From NCBI GenBank assembly GCA_903832665.1, contig CAILCG010000017.1:1-64000 (forward strand): a stretch of 64,000 bases of DNA, given 5' to 3'. This DNA comes from an uncultured Methanomicrobiales archaeon. Its GTDB lineage: Archaea; Halobacteriota; Methanomicrobia; Methanomicrobiales; Methanospirillaceae. The number at the start of each line of letters is the position of its first letter. Position 1 is the first letter of the stretch. The notes beneath the pieces were generated by a model that was given only the letters and a program-made list of their open reading frames with translations, ran no database searches and was not told the origin of the DNA. Positions 8,245-39,347 of the stretch are shown here, piece by piece. The position numbers were made by a program, and so were the translations under genes.

Positions 8245-9267
8245 ATGATGCACATAACGAGTCGAATACCCTATGTTCTCCTGCTCCTCGTGATGCTGGT
8301 GGCCGCAGTGCCGGTATCGGCTATCACCCTGACACCCGGGACCTCATTTTCCAGTGCGCCCTCCATTGCGAATGGCGATCCGGTCTATATCCATGGCATC
8401 GCCACCGGCCACCCGCAACAGGGCCTCCAGGTCTGGGTCCTGGGGAACAATTATGCAACAATCTCCACGATCTCGACCAATGCGGACAAGTCCTACGAGT
8501 ACGAGATGACCTCGGCCCAAACCCGTACCCTCTCGCCGGGACAATACTTTGTCCTGATCCAGCATCCCATGATGAACGGGGTCTTCGATATCTACTATAA
8601 TCCATCCACTGGCAGCGTCATCAACCGCCAGCTGGGAACGGGGATGTCGCTTTTCCAGTTCACGGGCGGCGGCAGCCTCCAGACTCCCGCGGGTGCAAAT
8701 GCCCTGCTGGATGCCATCGCCAGCCAGAACATTGACGATACCTTTGCGACGGCATCCTTCATTGTCAATCCCCCGACCGCCATCATCAGCCCGATCGGAA
8801 ACCACGTAGTCGGGGACAAGTTCACCGTCTCGGGATCAACCAACCTGGCAGTCGGCAATACCATGATGGTCGAGATCACCTCATCATCCTTCAAGCCGAC
8901 CTCCAAATCCCAGTCTGCCGAATTCTCGGGTGCCTCGGGACAGGTGACGGTTGTACCGGGAACCGGAGCCCTGAACCGCTGGTCATTCCCGGTCGATGCA
9001 TCGACTTTTAAGCCGGATGAGTACATCGTGAAAATTTCCGGGACCACGATCGATGTCTCCGCCACCACGCTCTTTAACATCCATGCAGCACCGCTGACCA
9101 CCGTAGCAACACCGACACCGGTCATTACCGTGCCGGCATCCCTTCCGGTAGTTCCGACGGCAGTTCCGACGGCAGTTCCGACGACTAAGAAATCGCCTGT
9201 ACCGGTCTTTGTTATTCTTGGTGTGATCGGGCTTGTGACAGTCATGATGATCACCGGCAGGAAATAA
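8245..9267 (+). CDS. Exported, C-terminally membrane-anchored protein
   Basis: A 340-residue surface protein. It has an N-terminal signal sequence (residues 1-25: hydrophobic LLLLVMLVAAVPVSA), two extracellular beta-rich parts, the first with GDPVYIHGIATGHP and GQYFVLIQHPMMNG, a Pro/Thr linker with three repeats of VPTA/T, and a C-terminal transmembrane helix VFVILGVIGLVTVMMI followed by basic residues. The organisation is typical of Methanomicrobiales surface proteins. The tail is not a PGF-CTERM signal, so anchoring is by the helix itself. I do not recognise a function. The start at ATG 8245 (a second ATG follows at 8248) puts the signal peptide at the N-terminus; the longer upstream frame is not protein-like. 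Confidence 0.7.
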   Translation: MMHITSRIPYVLLLLVMLVAAVPVSAITLTPGTSFSSAPSIANGDPVYIHGIATGHPQQGLQVWVLGNNYATISTISTNADKSYEYEMTSAQTRTLSPGQYFVLIQHPMMNGVFDIYYNPSTGSVINRQLGTGMSLFQFTGGGSLQTPAGANALLDAIASQNIDDTFATASFIVNPPTAIISPIGNHVVGDKFTVSGSTNLAVGNTMMVEITSSSFKPTSKSQSAEFSGASGQVTVVPGTGALNRWSFPVDASTFKPDEYIVKISGTTIDVSATTLFNIHAAPLTTVATPTPVITVPASLPVVPTAVPTAVPTTKKSPVPVFVILGVIGLVTVMMITGRK

Positions 9268-9273
9268 TTTTTT
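9268..9273 (+). terminator. T-run terminator
   Basis: A run of six T directly after the stop codon of the surface-protein gene, with a further T-rich stretch (TATTTTTTTCTTTCC) about 16 bases on, is a typical archaeal intrinsic terminator. Confidence 0.45.
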
Positions 9274-9617
9274 CGGGTCACGTTTCCCTATTTTTTTCTT
9301 TCCTTGCAGAATTATTCTGAGACAAATTACCAATGAGAACGTGACTATTCCAGCTGGATATTTAGGCCGGGCCAAAGACGGGGACTATCATATTTTTGTG
9401 ATCTCTTCGGATTCGATCATATACGAACCCTCACCAGACAACTTCGACATTAGTACCCCGATACCAAACCAACGGCTGCCTACTCCATCATCGCACATAT
9501 CCCCGGTTCACCCAAGGAAAATACCGGTCGGTAAATCCGTTTACCAAATCCTTCTTTTTATAAATACCGTAAAGATGAATTCATAAATTTTTTATCCCGA
9601 GTCACAACCAATAGTAT
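9274..9617. other. Intergenic, promoter region of PEGA gene
   Basis: No gene is supported. The only clear feature is the TATA box at 9557-9566 listed separately. Confidence 0.4.
9557..9566 (+). promoter_or_regulatory. TATA box
   Basis: TTTATAAATA, a near-perfect archaeal TATA box, lies about 52-61 bases upstream of the ATG at 9618. Transcription should begin close to 9590, giving a leader of roughly 30 bases. Confidence 0.55.
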
Positions 9618-27192: not shown

Positions 27193-29200
27193 ATGGATTC
27201 TGAAGGCAGCACATACCAGCAGGAGATCTTCGACTTTTTACCCGACGCCACATTTGTCATTGACCTTGAAGGTCGGGTGATTGCCTGGAACCGGGCCATG
27301 GAAGTGCTGACCGGTACACCCGCCACCACGATGCTCGGGAAAGGAAATTACGAAGCAGCCATCCCGTTCTATGGCGAGCGAAAACCAATGCTTGCTAATC
27401 TCATCTTCATGCCGGAAGTCGAGATCGAGAAGCGGTACGATACTATCGAGAAGGTTGGCGATACGCTTATCGTCGACGTTTTTATACCAACGTTCGGAAA
27501 AGAGGGGGTATATTTCTGGGCAAAGGCAAGCCCGCTCTTTGATCCGCAGGGGAATATCTCTGGCGCGATCCAGAAGATCCGGGACATCTCGGACCGGAAA
27601 CGAGCCGAACAGGAGATCACCCGCTCCCACCGTAGTCTTGAGGAGATCATCAGCTTCTTGCCCGACCCGACGTTTGTCATCAATCTTGACGGGGTAGTTA
27701 TCACATGGAACAGGGCAATGGAAGTGCTGACCGGGGTACCTGCCGCGGCAATGCTCGGAAAGGGGGATTATGAGTATGCACTCCCGTTTTACGGTGAGAG
27801 AAAACCGATGCTGGCAAATATCGTCTTCATGCCGGAAGTTGAGATCGAGAAACGGTACGACAATATCGAGAAGATCGGCGACACGCTGGTTATGGATATT
27901 TTCATACCAACGTTTGGGAACGGAGTGTATTTCTGGGCAAAGGCCAGTCCGCTCTATGATCCCCAGGGAAATATATCCGGCGCCATCCAGACGATCCGGG
28001 ATATCTCGGACCGGAAACGAGCCGAACAGGAGATCATACGCTCGCGCCGGAGCCTGGAGGAGATCATCAGTTTCTTACCGGATGCAACGTTTGTCATCAA
28101 CCGTGAGGGATACGTCATCACATGGAACCGGGCCATGGAGGACCTGACAGGCGTGCCGGCCCAGGCCATGGTGGGGAAAGGGGATTATGAGTATGCTCTC
28201 CCGTTCTATGGCGCAAGGCAACCGATGCTCGCCAATCTTATTCTCATGCCCGAGACGGAAGTGGAGAGCCGGTATACCCACGTGAAGCGCGAAGGCGACA
28301 CTCTCGTAGTGGACACGTTCCTCCCCCAACTGGGGATCTCGGGACGGTATTTCTGGGCCAAGGCAAGCCCGCTCTATGATCCCCAGGGAACTATTACCGG
28401 GGCAATTGAGACGATACGGGACATCACCGAGCGCCGCGAGATGGAGGGAAGACTCGCCCGTTCGAATGCCGAGCTCCAGATCGCTGCCGAGATCCAGCAG
28501 AGTTTCCTACCGGAAGTGATCCCCCAGATCACGGGCTTTGACATCTCCGCAAAGAGCGTGATGGCCAAGGAAGTGGGGGGATTTTTTCGATGTCATTCCC
28601 TTTGAGATCATCCCGCTCGAGAAAGGTACGCTGGGAATCCTGATTGCCGATGTTTCCGGAAAAGGGGTGCCGGCGGCCCTCTTCATGGCCTTGTCCCGGA
28701 TCGTGGTCCGGGTCAATGCCCTCTGGCACCGCGACCCGGCACGGGCAATCCATGATGCAAACAATGTCATTGCGCAGGACTCCAAGGCAGGGATGTTTGT
28801 CACGCTCTTCTACGGGATCCTTTCCGAGAAGAACCGGACCCTGACGTATGTAAATGCCGGCCATAACCCACCCGTGGTCTTCCGGAGCCGGGATGGCAGC
28901 CTCGAAGAACTCATGCCCACCGGCATTGTGCTGGGTGAGGTTGAACACCGGGAATTCTTCTCCCGAACGATCGATATCGGCCCGGATGATATCATTGTCA
29001 TGTACACCGATGGTATCACCGAATCCATCAATGCCCGCGAGGAGATGTTTGGCGAAGAACGGCTCTATTCAGTGCTGCGAAATAACGCCAGTCGCTCGTC
29101 CCGCGAGATTCTCGGTGAGATCCTCGCCGCGGTCAAAACGTTCACCGGAGATGAGCCCCAGTTCGATGATATCACCCTGATGGTGATAAAAGGCGTCTGA
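27193..29200 (+). pseudogene. Triple-PAS SpoIIE-type phosphatase, frameshifted
   Basis: The gene encodes three nearly identical PAS domains in tandem (starting near 27232, 27650 and 28070; each begins FLPDATFVI or FLPDPTFVI and ends with KASPLYDPQG ... IRDISDRKRAEQEI), then a short coiled-coil and a PPM/SpoIIE phosphatase. The phosphatase begins after a frame change at 28573-28583, in a G6-A-T6 run: reading before gives AKEVGGFFRCHSL then stop; after the shift it gives FDVIPFEIIPL. Two missing G would restore the usual VGGDFFDV. The rest is intact (GKGVPAALFMALSRIVVR, DDIIVMYTDGITESIN, FDDITLMVIKG). SpoIIE-type enzymes dephosphorylate anti-sigma antagonists; archaea lack sigma factors, so the target is unknown. 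Convergent with a histidine kinase. Confidence 0.85.
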
Positions 29201-33313: not shown

Positions 33314-34621
33314 ATGGTAGATCAGTATCTCATTGAGATTCGTCTCGGAACAACAAAATGGCGAATGAATGAGACGATCTACGCCATTGCAAAAAAATTC
33401 CGGCTCGGTGCATTTATTGAAAAACACCCGCATGTAACTCTTTTTGGTCCCCTGATTCTCAACGAAGGAGTCACCACCGCCCAACTCCAGGATGCGATCG
33501 AGAAGGTAGCATCCCGGTACGACCCGATCCCCTTCATGATTGACGGCTGGGAGAAGCGCAATGGCATGCACGGGAGTGTGATTGCATTCTCTGTCAGACC
33601 ATCGGAGGCACTCCGGAGTCTCACTGCCACAATCGCCCAGGCCCTCCCTCCTCACTCCGCCAGTCTTAATCCCTGGGATGCCTTTCCCGAAAAAAAATGG
33701 TTTCATGTCACCATCGCTAACCGGCTCGAACCCACCCGGGCTGAAAAAATATTCTCTGTAATCGCCCGGTCCCGGGAGACGCTGCCCCGGGTTGACCGCT
33801 CCCTGGATGGGATATTGCGCCCGCTAAAATGGGCGTTGAAAGCGCTTGGGATACGGCACCGCAAGGTCATCTGGCCGGTAACGCTTGACGAACACGGACT
33901 CCGCATCACCGTAATGCAAGGCGAAGAGATTCTTGTTGAATATGATCTCCTGGATCACTGCTGGATTCCGGGTGGATCCCGTCACACCTCTGCTGCCTGG
34001 CAGCAGAGCCTTTCAGCGTACCGGAAAAAAATGGGTTTTGAACGCCTCCCAGCGGAACCGTATTCCGGTGAGGAGATCTTCCTCATCTCGGATCTGCACC
34101 TTGGCCATGCCAATATCATCCGGTACTGTTCCCGGCCATTCCTCTTTTCTGAAGTCGGTGATATGGATCGCGTGCTTATCGATAACTGGAACTCTGTGAT
34201 CGGCCCGGGGGACCGGTGCTATTTCCTCGGGGATCTGCGGTACGGGAGCCATGCCCGGAGCACCGGTGAATACCGGGCACAACTCGCCGGGAAGATCACA
34301 TTCATCCGGGGCAATCACGATGATAATGGGCTTGATGCAGTACCGTTTTCGTCTCTGGATTACCGGGGCATCCGGTTCCTGCTGGTGCATGATCCCGCCG
34401 ACGGTCCCCCCGGATTTGAGGGCTGGACGATCCACGGCCATTACCATAACAATGATCTCCATCATTTCCCGTTCATCAACTTTGTTGATCGCCGGATCAA
34501 TGTGAGTGCGGAAGTGATCGGGTACGTACCGGTGGGAATGGACGAGATCATCGACCGTATTCAGGTCGGGCTTGAAGGGAAAGATCTCCGCCCGGTCCTC
34601 CTGAGATACCCCGTATCCTAA
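33314..34621 (+). CDS. Fusion of 2H phosphoesterase and calcineurin-like metallophosphoesterase
   Basis: A 435-residue two-domain protein. Residues 1-165 are a 2H phosphoesterase (2'-5' RNA ligase-like): the two HxT motifs are HPHVTLFGP (His40, Thr42) and KWFHVTIAN (His131, Thr133). Residues about 250-435 are a metallophosphoesterase with the metal motifs SDLHLGHANII (260-265), GPGDRCYFLGDLR, IRGNHDD, LVHD and IHGHYHNN, similar to COG4186 proteins. The linker (about 170-250) contains WPVTLDEHGLRITV. 2H enzymes open 2',3'-cyclic phosphates or related bonds and MPE domains remove phosphates, so one chain could do both steps on RNA ends or ADP-ribose cyclic phosphate. That role is inference. Start ATG 33314. 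Confidence 0.88.
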   Translation: MVDQYLIEIRLGTTKWRMNETIYAIAKKFRLGAFIEKHPHVTLFGPLILNEGVTTAQLQDAIEKVASRYDPIPFMIDGWEKRNGMHGSVIAFSVRPSEALRSLTATIAQALPPHSASLNPWDAFPEKKWFHVTIANRLEPTRAEKIFSVIARSRETLPRVDRSLDGILRPLKWALKALGIRHRKVIWPVTLDEHGLRITVMQGEEILVEYDLLDHCWIPGGSRHTSAAWQQSLSAYRKKMGFERLPAEPYSGEEIFLISDLHLGHANIIRYCSRPFLFSEVGDMDRVLIDNWNSVIGPGDRCYFLGDLRYGSHARSTGEYRAQLAGKITFIRGNHDDNGLDAVPFSSLDYRGIRFLLVHDPADGPPGFEGWTIHGHYHNNDLHHFPFINFVDRRINVSAEVIGYVPVGMDEIIDRIQVGLEGKDLRPVLLRYPVS

Positions 34622-34710
34622 AAACGGCTTGAATACCCTCCCGGATTGGTCGCTTCATAACCTTTTTTACGTACCCGGCTGCAGAGTTCAACAGTGCCGG
34701 TGAAGTGACG

Positions 34711-36078
34711 ATGTTCTTTCAACGAATTGTATCTGAAGGAATTGCCCACAACTCCTATCTTGTCGGGTCAAACGGGCAGGCAGCGGTGATCGATCCGCGA
34801 CGCGACTGCGGGATATACCTGGAGATCGCGCGGCAAAATGACTTGGCAATCTCTCACATCTTCGAAACGCACCGCAACGAGGATTACGTGATTGGTTCGG
34901 TCGAGCTCGCTGCTCGTTCCGGGGCCGAAATTCATCACGGGGCCGCTATGGCATTTTCCTATGGCAAACCTGTGCGGAAAGGGGATATATTCCCGATTGG
35001 ATCGCTCGAACTCCGCATTCTCGAGACACCGGGGCATACCGAAGAGAGCATATCGCTGGTCCTTACGGACAAAGAAGTCTCTGCCCGCCCCTACATGGTC
35101 TTTACCGGCGATACCCTCTTCTCGGGAGATATTGCCCGGACGGATTTCTATGGGGAGAAACGAAAGGCCGAGATGGCAGAGAAGATCTTTGATAATATCC
35201 AGAACAAAATCCTACCCCTGGGGGAAGGGGCGATCATCTGCCCGGCACATGGAGCGGGCTCTGTGTGTGGCGGGGAGATTGCGGATCACCCGTTCACGAC
35301 CGTGGGATATGAAAAGGCGACGAACCGGTGGATTCTTGGGGGACGCGAGGTCTTCATTGCAGCGCGTGTGAAGGAGTCGCCCTATGTTCCGCCGTACTTC
35401 AAAAAGATGGAGCAGTTGAACAAGGAAGGTCCCCGCCCCCTTCACGGGATCTCTCCACCCAGGCCACTTTCGGTAAGCGAGGTCAATACCCTAAGAACAT
35501 CAGGATGCCAGATCCTGGATCTTCGGGCACCCACCAGTTTTGGTGCAGGTCATATTCCCGGCAGCATCTCGATCTGGCGCGAGGGGCTTTCGGCATTCAT
35601 GGGGTGGGTATTCACATACGATCTGCCCATTATCCTGGTCGATGACTTCAATCTCTCGCTTGATACCGTGCAGCGCCAGATGCTCCGGTTAGGCTATGAC
35701 AATGTTGCCGGATACCTGGCCGGAGGCTTTCCCCTCTGGACAAAAGCCGCGCAGGAGATTGCCACTCTCCCGACCTGCTCGGTGCAGCAACTCAATGAGC
35801 GCCTGAGATCAGAGTCGCCGTTCCTCCTCGATGTGCGGGACAGGAAGAACTGGGACTCCATTGGCCATATCCCGGGTGCCCATCACCGGTACGTGGGAGA
35901 ACTCGTTTCTCATCTTGACGAGACGCCCCGTAACCGGCCCCTGGTGATCTATTGCGATGCCGGGTACAAGGGAGGTCTTGCCGCCAGTATCCTGGCCCGG
36001 CACGGTTATCATGAGATGACCAATGTTCTTGGCGGCATGACTGCATGGAAACGGGCCGGGTTCCCTATAGAAAAATAA
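34711..36078 (+). CDS. Metallo-beta-lactamase-fold / double rhodanese protein
   Basis: About 455 residues. The N-terminal 260 are an MBL domain of the persulfide-dioxygenase branch, with PGHTEESISLV, MVFTGDTLFSGD and CPAHGAGS. The usual THxHxDH metal motif is THRNEDY (residues 50-56), which lacks two of the ligands. Next come two rhodanese domains: the first (about 265-345) has no active Cys; the second, near residues 365-455, has VIYCDAGYKGG with the catalytic Cys. Related proteins handle sulfane sulfur. A GTG six bases upstream is alternative. The MBL ligand change may mean lost or altered oxygenase activity, which fits a strict anaerobe. Confidence 0.8.
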   Translation: MFFQRIVSEGIAHNSYLVGSNGQAAVIDPRRDCGIYLEIARQNDLAISHIFETHRNEDYVIGSVELAARSGAEIHHGAAMAFSYGKPVRKGDIFPIGSLELRILETPGHTEESISLVLTDKEVSARPYMVFTGDTLFSGDIARTDFYGEKRKAEMAEKIFDNIQNKILPLGEGAIICPAHGAGSVCGGEIADHPFTTVGYEKATNRWILGGREVFIAARVKESPYVPPYFKKMEQLNKEGPRPLHGISPPRPLSVSEVNTLRTSGCQILDLRAPTSFGAGHIPGSISIWREGLSAFMGWVFTYDLPIILVDDFNLSLDTVQRQMLRLGYDNVAGYLAGGFPLWTKAAQEIATLPTCSVQQLNERLRSESPFLLDVRDRKNWDSIGHIPGAHHRYVGELVSHLDETPRNRPLVIYCDAGYKGGLAASILARHGYHEMTNVLGGMTAWKRAGFPIEK

Positions 36079-36154
36079 CCATGGATCTTTTTCTTTGGAC
36101 AGGAATTAAGAAGATTTATCTTCTTTGTATGGAAACGCAGATCGTAGTGTCACC

Positions 36155-36631
36155 ATGGAAATTATCAAGATCCCCCGGATGGAAAAACTGGAATACGACC
36201 GTCTGATAGAGAACGGGTATATCTGCCGTATCGCGTTCCAGGGCGAGAAATATCCCTACATCGCACCGTTCCTATATGTCTTTGACGGGTCATTCCTCTA
36301 TTTCCTCTCGACTAAATACGGGAAGAAGATCGAATATTTCCGCAAAAGCCCGTATGCTTCAGTCGAGATAGAGAAATACACCAAAGATCTCTCTTCCTAC
36401 ACGTTCGTGACACTCCAGGGGTACCTGGAAGAAGTTCACGACTCGATCGAGAAGAAGATCATCCGGGAGAAATTTGTCGATCTTATCGTAGAGAGAAACC
36501 TCTCATGCAATATCCTGGCGGCACTCGGGCACTCCCCGCTTGACGCCCCGGCAGCAATCGGGCAGGAAGAGCGCTCGCTGGTCTGGAAACTTGTCGGGGT
36601 CAAGGATCTCGTTGCACTGAAAAATCTTTGA
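36155..36631 (+). CDS. Pyridoxamine-5'-phosphate-oxidase-like flavoprotein
   Basis: A 158-residue protein starting MEIIKIPRMEKLEYDRLI. The split-barrel flavin-binding fold is indicated by GYICRIAFQGEKYPYIAPF, the strand FLYFLSTKYGKKIEY and the helix-strand FVTLQGYLEEV. It resembles the nitroimidazole-resistance group that binds FMN or F420. Substrate unknown. In-frame upstream sequence to 36125 is also open, but ATG 36155 fits the family. The gene follows the MBL-rhodanese gene on the same strand after 76 bases. Confidence 0.78.
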   Translation: MEIIKIPRMEKLEYDRLIENGYICRIAFQGEKYPYIAPFLYVFDGSFLYFLSTKYGKKIEYFRKSPYASVEIEKYTKDLSSYTFVTLQGYLEEVHDSIEKKIIREKFVDLIVERNLSCNILAALGHSPLDAPAAIGQEERSLVWKLVGVKDLVALKNL

Positions 36632-37168: not shown

Positions 37169-39347
37169 TCAGAATTTTTTTACATTAATCTGCAGGGTCA
37201 GAACACCGGGATCCGTACCGGGCATCGAACAGCTATGCCCGGTACAGACATAGGCGGTTGCTCTTCCTTCTGTCATGGAGAGGTTCCGAGTAAAGGGGGC
37301 AAGATCTGCCAGGGCGACTGCCTCGGGGCCCGGTGTGAATCGCAGGACGAGTAATGATGGGAGATACCCCGACCGTACTGCAGATACCAGCGCACGGGTA
37401 TCTTCCGACTCCTCTGCTCCCACGATAATGACATCATGGGAAGGATCTTCGAGAAGATCGAGCCCGCACAGGTACCAGGTATAGGCAGAGGGAGAGAGGC
37501 CGATCGTGCCAGCAAACGCACGCGAGAGGGCCGAGGCATGCTCCTCAAGCCGGGGGTCTCCGGTGAGGCGGGAGAGACGGATCAGGTTCATAAAGGCAAC
37601 AGAGTTGCAGGAAGGAATCGCACCATCATAAATCTCTTTTTTCCGGACAATCAGTGCTTCAGCAGTATCCGAGACCGTAAAATACCCGCCCTCATGTGCA
37701 TCGTGGAAATGGGCTGACAGGTACTGGTTGAGTTCAACGGCAGTCCTGATAAGAGGCGGGTCGAAGGTGGTCTCGTACAACTCGATGAGGGCATGGATTA
37801 TGCAGGCATAATCATCGGCAAAACCCGGGATTGCGGCTTCCCCTTCCCGGTACCGGTGCAGGAGGCCGCCATCATCGCTGCGCATACGGGACAGGATGAA
37901 ATTCAGGGCGGTTTTCGCCACATCAACCCAGCCGGGATTGTCAAACACCCTCCCCGCCTGGGCCAGGGCCGCTGTCCATAACCCGTTCCAGTCAGCGAGT
38001 ACCTTGTCATCGAGTGAGGGGCGCGCCCGCTCCCCCCGGGCTTTTAAGAGGCGGGAGGCGATAGTTGCCACGCGCAGTTCCAGTTCCTCCCGGGGTACCT
38101 GGAGGGATTCTGCAATGTTTTCAAGCGGTTGCGGGCGGTGGAGAATATTGAACCCGTGACCACGTTCAGCATCATGATAATTTCCTTCTGCAGTAAGATC
38201 GAATACCAGCGCCGCTATAGCCGCGTCCCCGTTCCCCAGGAGCTCTTCGATCTCCCGCAGGGTCCAGACATAAAACGCCCCCTCACCGTCAGGACTGTCA
38301 GCATCCTCTGCTGAAAAAAACGCCCCTTCCGGAGATCGCAGGGAATGCAGTACATAGCCAATGATCTCTTCAACGGTTCTTCGGTACACGTCATTCCCTT
38401 GCCCGGTACGCTTCGGTGCACGCCATGACCAGCAGGGCCTGGTCGTAGAGCATCTGCTCAAAATGCGGGACCAGCCACCGGGCATCCGTGGAATATCGGT
38501 GAATCCCTCCGGCAAGGTGATCATAGATACCGCCATTTCGAATCGCCGTGAGAGTCGTTTCCGCCATGGCAAAAGCACGGGAACTGGGGTGCCTTGCACC
38601 GTACCGGAGGAGGAAAAGAAGCGTATGGGGCGCGGGAAATTTCGGTACCCTGCCAAAACCCCCGTTCACGGTGTCGAACTCCATAAGGAGGGACGGATAT
38701 GCCTCGTCCATGAATTCACTTCCCGATTCTGTCCGGGAAGAGAGAATACCGGGAGATGCAATTGCAGCAATGACCTGGTCAGCAGATCGTATCAGGTTCA
38801 ACCGCTGGTTCTTCCATGCAGTGATTATCCGGGGAAGGAGCGTGAGGAGTCCCATCATGGAGAACCGGGTCTCTTTGGGAATGTAGGTTGCCGCAAAGAA
38901 CGGTTTTTTATCCGGGGTCATAACAATAGTGAGCGGCCATCCCCCCTGTCCTGCCAATTGCTGGCAGACTGCCATATACACGGAGTCGATATCCGGGCGC
39001 TCTTCTCTATCAACCTTTATTGCGATAAAATCCCGGTTGAGCAGAGCGGCTACCTCGGGATCTTCGAAGGATTCGTGTGCCATCACATGGCACCAGTGAT
39101 ACGTGGCATACCCGATCGAGAGAAAGACCGGCTTGTCCTCGCGGGCAGCCCGGGAAAATGCCTCTTCGCCCCATGGGTACCAGTACACCGGGTTTTCCGC
39201 ATGCTGGAGAAGGTAGGGACTCTTCTCGTTCACCAGGCCGTTCGGCTTCCGCCCGGAGTGACCTGCCGGCAGATCTGCCGGGGAATTTTCTTCCACCATT
39301 ACTGCCTCATGGGCGGTGCAACCTGATGAGCCTTTCACCCGTACCAT
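37169..39347 (-). pseudogene. Thioredoxin-domain protein YyaL/SSP411-like, frameshifted
   Basis: Two overlapping minus-strand frames together make one protein of about 725 residues: the N-terminal frame runs 39347 to 38391 (thioredoxin-like domain and first part of the alpha-toroid), the rest to 37169. The shift is at about 38391-38396, between EAYRARE and DVYRRTVEEII. The thioredoxin motif, usually CHWCHVM, is here [17 protein letters not shown], so the first Cys is Tyr. [19 protein letters not shown] at the start is family-typical. The role of these proteins is uncertain; they combine a thioredoxin-like domain with a glycosidase-type barrel. The single lesion leaves both halves well preserved. 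Confidence 0.82.

Follow-up and report, generated by a model that had tools for sequence, protein, structure and literature searches.

A conserved, apparently undescribed fusion of a 2H phosphoesterase and a calcineurin-like metallophosphoesterase in an uncultured Methanomicrobiales archaeon

What might an archaeon gain by joining a 2H phosphoesterase and a calcineurin-like metallophosphoesterase (MPE) in one polypeptide? The question is raised by a gene in the window, by which we mean the whole 64,000-nucleotide stretch analyzed here (positions 1 to 64,000 of contig CAILCG010000017.1 from an uncultured Methanomicrobiales archaeon). At 33314-34621, on the + strand, the window contains a single ORF with an ATG start and a TAA stop, encoding a protein of 435 aa. 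A first-pass annotation had read this ORF as a fusion of the two domains and had proposed that they jointly clean the cyclic-phosphate ends of RNA or process ADP-ribose cyclic phosphate. As detailed below, the fusion itself is borne out by profile matches, by fold and by its conservation, while the proposed functions fare less evenly.

Architecture of the window protein

The 2H domain (residues ~3-150; 33320..33763, + strand) matches PF13563, the 2'-5' RNA ligase superfamily, over residues 29-155 with an E-value of 5.5e-18 and 65.9 bits (cut-off 27), and it also matches the profile of YjcG (PDB 2d4g; E 1.2e-6). Alignment confirms the two HxT motifs picked out at first pass, that is, H40-V41-T42 (33431..33439, +) and H131-V132-T133 (33704..33712, +), with H40 and H131 both invariant in 46 intact members, as we call the fusion proteins that keep both motifs, those without them being termed degenerate. 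The motifs, the duplicated fold and a PF13563 match above cut-off assign this half of the protein to the 2H superfamily.

As for the MPE domain (residues ~252-418; 34067..34567, +), the window protein alone gave no match as good as E 1 to any Pfam MPE model, and among the 46 aligned homologs Metallophos_2 matches 25 and Metallophos 14. The domain matches PDB 1xm7 (aq_1665) with an E-value of 1.8e-4 as a single sequence and of 7.3e-14 with the family profile. Its metal and catalytic set is complete (D260, H262, D307, N334, H335, H359, H376 and H378), as had been claimed, except that the GDR assigned to it (residues 299-301) was the wrong motif, the conserved one being GDL, formed by G306-D307-L308. 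All the motifs of the MPE superfamily are found: D260 and H262, G306-D307, G333-N334-H335-D336, H359 and G375-H376-x-H378. We also considered PdeM, the ligase-associated endonuclease of TIGR04123, and rejected this identity because the match (E 4.8e-7, 29.4 bits) lies under that model's curated cut-off of 150 bits and no ligase occurs among the Pfam-identified neighbors. As a sub-threshold match, it nonetheless counts among the evidence for an MPE domain, next to 1xm7, the Metallophos_2 matches of the homologs and the fold.

The two domains are connected by a conserved linker (residues ~190-246; 33881..34051, +) composed of a strand hairpin and a helix (226-240), with R197, D211, W217 and R237. 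R237, which sits in the helix preceding the MPE domain, is an arginine in 111 of the 111 fusion proteins compared, intact and degenerate alike. The linker region is present in stand-alone 2H proteins as well. Judged from these motifs, the window protein is a single chain carrying a complete putative 2H site and a complete putative MPE site.

An AlphaFold2 model, built on the alignment of the 46 intact homologs, predicts both folds with high confidence (mean pLDDT 90.1, pTM 0.88), and the pTM suggests that the two halves adopt a defined arrangement. When the halves were compared with known structures using Foldseek, the best match of the MPE half was again 1xm7 (E 2.9e-8), with VPS29 and LpxH also found, and the 2H half matched plant cyclic phosphodiesterase (CPDase), human Usb1, YjcG, LigT and AKAP18.

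Distribution and genomic context of the fusion

Full-length fusions of the same length and architecture were collected from ~108 genomes or records; the intact form occurs in 68 of them and the degenerate one in 41, a single case having both. Methanoregula and other Methanomicrobiales are among the carriers, and the families concerned are, by group code, f1, f2, f3, f5 and f6 in the host order, together with f9 and f14, which lie outside that order but in the same phylum. Conservation of the pairing thus spans a large part of one methanogen order and extends to two further families of its phylum. Matches of any kind were found in 68 of the 150 genomes sampled in the host order and in 128 of 232 genomes in the class, although fusion counts are not to be read as frequencies since sampling is uneven; bacteria were covered by a pattern scan only, which is sensitive to close relatives. 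In close pairs, both halves are under purifying selection, with a dN/dS of ~0.15-0.5 for the N domain and ~0.05-0.24 for the MPE. Because the one-chain architecture recurs so widely, with purifying selection acting on both halves, the fusion goes beyond a chance occurrence and is, on these comparative grounds, an old architecture.

The contrary picture envisaged at first pass, in which the homologous domains are separate genes with unrelated contexts, is not what we observed: the two are fused, or adjacent in a few genomes. In two of these (G064 and G183), a 2H gene is directly followed by a same-strand MPE gene, and in trees their products group with stand-alone proteins, apart from the fusions, so that these gene pairs look like an independent pairing of 2H and MPE activities. 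In another genome (G412), a 2H ORF is followed by broken MPE reading frames. Stand-alone MPE genes and stand-alone 2H genes exist besides the fusions, and a PF13563 family match is present in 143 of 150 genomes of the host order, mostly as separate genes of ~180-210 aa. With a separate PF13563 gene near-universal in the order, the fusion is an extra copy and opening of cyclic phosphates would be available elsewhere. Three genomes with a degenerate fusion (G049, G099 and G119; L176, L177 and L178) also encode a separate 2H protein of 262-266 aa in which both motifs and the linker are preserved, as though each activity had been assigned to a gene of its own.

Searches of phages, plasmids and 80 viral contigs returned the MPE half alone and never the fusion, the viral contigs encoding short stand-alone MPEs with no 2H close by, and a phage, plasmid or viral origin of the fusion was rejected on this basis. 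A match on a rhizobial plasmid over residues 195-415, apparently a distant fusion, proved to be a 302-aa MPE-only protein, and a haloarchaeal "fusion" of 455-475 aa (L112), which has no 2H domain upstream, was excluded from the set. One fusion copy (L106, G296:C1, 8525-10452) is broken because the gene is interrupted, directly past its GNH motif, by an insertion bearing a DDE_Tnp_IS240 transposase (8819-9457). On the Halorubrum plasmid p117 (L075, 1-6297), a stand-alone MPE of the same family is surrounded by genes for three other annotated metallophosphoesterases, a DHH phosphoesterase and an ATP-binding protein.

Searching archaeal genomes for the domain pair and inspecting its neighbors had been suggested at first pass, and the fusion does recur across families. 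Clustering the neighborhoods of ~45 loci revealed no shared operon partner, synteny being seen at genus or family level alone; among the immediate neighbors there is no conserved partner pointing to RNA or nucleotide metabolism, and none is defense-like. In the window's genus, the fusion has a divergent HAD gene upstream and an MBL-rhodanese gene downstream, and in several f2 genomes the downstream gene resembles, by eye, an NDP-forming acyl-CoA synthetase. The genus-conserved downstream genes in the window encode a metallo-beta-lactamase plus rhodanese protein (34705-36078, +) and a pyridoxamine oxidase-like protein (36125-36631, +).

Two further genes of the window are split between reading frames. 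The PAS/SpoIIE-phosphatase-like frames at 27193-28605 and 28667-29200 continue one another, with a shift near 28575 (region 28500-28760), and this break in a predicted gene is a frameshift or a sequencing error. A DUF255/YyaL-like gene, named by eye (37169-39347, -), occupies two frames that overlap, one of 495 aa and the other of 318 aa, and its relatives in the same place mostly have one frame of ~700-720 aa.

Loss of the 2H active site

The first-pass reading depended on conservation of the 2H histidines, which turned out to be partial. Among 114 distinct fusion proteins, the H, T/S, H, T/S residues are all present in 73, neither histidine is found in 41, and no protein has a single one. 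An alignment-free pattern check found a correctly spaced HxT/S pair in none of the 41 degenerate members, and the MPE active-site residues, from D260 to H378, are intact in nearly all fusions. These residue patterns indicate that much of the fusion family can do without 2H catalysis but not without the MPE. Since more than a third of the fusion proteins lack the 2H motifs, the fusion cannot be taken simply as one RNA-end repair machine, and two-step chemistry is not what maintains it.

While its motifs are gone, the degenerate N domain can still be linked to the 2H fold. In profile-profile comparisons with intact N domains, most degenerate groups match with E-values from 2.8e-5 to 1.3e-17, the weakest (g26) giving 2.7e-4, when unrelated alignments used as negative controls gave 0.06 or worse. 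The N domain evolves faster in degenerate members (at an MPE identity of 0.74, its identity is 0.49 versus 0.67 in intact members), with the MPE motif residues and R237 staying fixed, and it is under some constraint since its dN/dS remains within the range given above. The one degenerate member that we modeled, which has no Pfam 2H match, was predicted by AlphaFold2 (pLDDT 87, pTM 0.86) to be still 2H-like, resembling drCPDase (5h7e; TM 0.69, normalized by target), Usb1 and the P. furiosus ligase-like 2fyh. Because the motifs are lost yet the place of the domain is kept, and in this modeled member its fold too, the 2H half of degenerate proteins is probably a binding or positioning domain.

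These observations also bear on the strongest competing explanation, that the MPE is the sole enzyme that matters and that every member uses its 2H half chiefly for substrate binding or regulation, with intact motifs serving binding or a secondary activity, on a substrate that is maybe an oligonucleotide, a dinucleotide or another phosphodiester. We regard this as rather unlikely, although the joint disappearance of both 2H motifs next to a retained MPE site, the 2H fold predicted in the absence of a Pfam match and the profile links to intact 2H domains, which the negative controls lack, all speak for it. However, the fold evidence comes from one degenerate model, and intact members retain both HxT/S motifs down to ~30% overall identity, a persistence across deep divergence that would be unexpected for mere binding.

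The number of losses was estimated on several trees. On a full quick tree of the MPE domain, the degenerate label has to change eight times, and well-supported branches force at least four of these changes; a careful MPE tree (54 rows) gives three losses, with three to four in bootstrap trees and a single loss in none of 200. In the 2H-domain tree, nine degenerate members form one clade, which is possibly an artifact because the branches are long. Recurrent independent loss of the 2H site is likely, and we grade it no more firmly because an AU test does not reject a single degenerate clade (p 0.125). It is conceivable, although we would put the chance below even, that the 2H half was converted, perhaps several times independently, from an enzyme to a non-catalytic binding domain serving the MPE half, in which case the family would offer a naturally occurring series, within a single architecture, of 2H domains that work and others that are dead. 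The all-or-none loss of the motifs within one architecture makes the family a natural experiment on non-catalytic 2H roles.

Proposed function and relation to known systems

For the intact form, our preferred reading, held tentatively, is that RNA breakdown products with cyclic phosphates are cleaned up or salvaged in two steps; gene context speaks neither for nor against it, and we infer substrate, reaction order and biological role as follows. The window protein would be a cytosolic phosphoesterase with two sites. Its 2H half would convert a 2',3'-cyclic phosphate, carried by a nucleotide or by an RNA fragment at its 3' end, into a monoester, from which the MPE half, through its two-metal site, would then strip the phosphate. 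The indispensable core of the family as a whole would be the MPE half together with the R237-bearing linker helix, the 2H half being catalytically optional. Of the joint cleaning of cyclic-phosphate ends that had been proposed at first pass, cyclic opening followed by monoester removal thus stands as the best reading of the intact form, but cleaning of ends for sealing is weakened.

That the fusion prepares RNA ends for sealing, or processes ADP-ribose cyclic phosphate, strikes us as improbable. Both are among the known 2H reactions (PMC5283653), and gene clusters for phage RNA repair and for sirtuins can contain calcineurin-like and 2H enzymes together (PMC9503650). However, among 150 genomes of the host order, 0 gave a match to KptA/Tpt1 (PF01885) and 0 to the Pab1020-type ATP-dependent RNA ligase (TIGR01209, the one ATP-dependent ligase family covered), positive controls being recovered in both searches. 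The ADP-ribose reading thus lacks its partner and the "heal then ligate" reading lacks a ligase of this type; the former, also put forward at first pass, is not upheld. Moreover, 2H enzymes convert 2',3'-cyclic phosphates to 2'-phosphates (PMC5283653), whereas RtcB, which is present in the host genome, joins 2',3'-cyclic or 3'-phosphate ends directly (PMC3973293). A 2H enzyme would therefore compete with RtcB instead of helping it, since a 2'-phosphate or free end would work against RtcB. This conflict, combined with the lack of KptA/Tpt1 and of a Pab1020-type ligase, suggests that the enzyme cleans up or salvages the products of RNA breakdown rather than preparing ends for ligation. Hydrolysis of a signaling nucleotide (cyclic oligoadenylate, cGAMP-like or 2'-5' oligoadenylate), as by Acb1 and poxvirus or other viral 2H enzymes, is very improbable. 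Profile and fold searches link the protein weakly to penguinpox cGAMP PDE and to Acb1, but Csm1 (type III CRISPR, the signaling system covered) occurs in only 17 of 150 genomes and is absent from the host genome, though the fusion is common, and there is neither a PADLOC match nor a defense-like neighborhood.

Full-text literature searches, whose coverage did not extend to Mazumder 2002 or to a 2016 review on RNA repair, found no paper describing a 2H-MPE fusion, in agreement with the first-pass impression. The fusion is real, conserved and apparently undescribed, although neither domain is new. The window protein shares with the 2H superfamily (PF13563/YjcG-like 2d4g, LigT/ThpR) two HxT motifs ~90 residues apart, a duplicated fold and a match above the curated cut-off, but differs in being fused to an MPE, in having an extra conserved linker and in having fusion relatives (41 of 114) from which the motifs are absent. 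RNA repair clusters of phages and bacteria, made up of 2H, cRec, HAD and calcineurin-like genes (PMC9503650, PMC7824862), likewise bring together these two enzyme classes, which are proposed to act on cyclic-phosphate ends. There, however, these are separate genes with ligase or sirtuin partners, none of which is found among the immediate neighbors of the fusion.

The salvage reading has a functional counterpart, itself hypothetical, in CpdB, a 2',3'-cyclic nucleotide phosphodiesterase/3'-nucleotidase that clears or salvages 2',3'-cyclic nucleotides in bacteria (PMC7922932, PMC4905662). The proposed net reaction in one chain is the same, but CpdB is secreted, performs both steps without a 2H domain and has an unrelated architecture. 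In sequence and in fold, the MPE half comes closest to Aquifex aeolicus aq_1665 (1xm7) and to stand-alone phage MPEs annotated COG4186, with which it shares the order of motifs and an NVS/E...P tail region. In contrast to the fusion, these are single-domain proteins, and 1xm7 is without a demonstrated function or substrate. By tying this uncharacterized MPE family, common in phages, to cyclic-phosphate chemistry, the fusion would provide it with a first testable substrate class.
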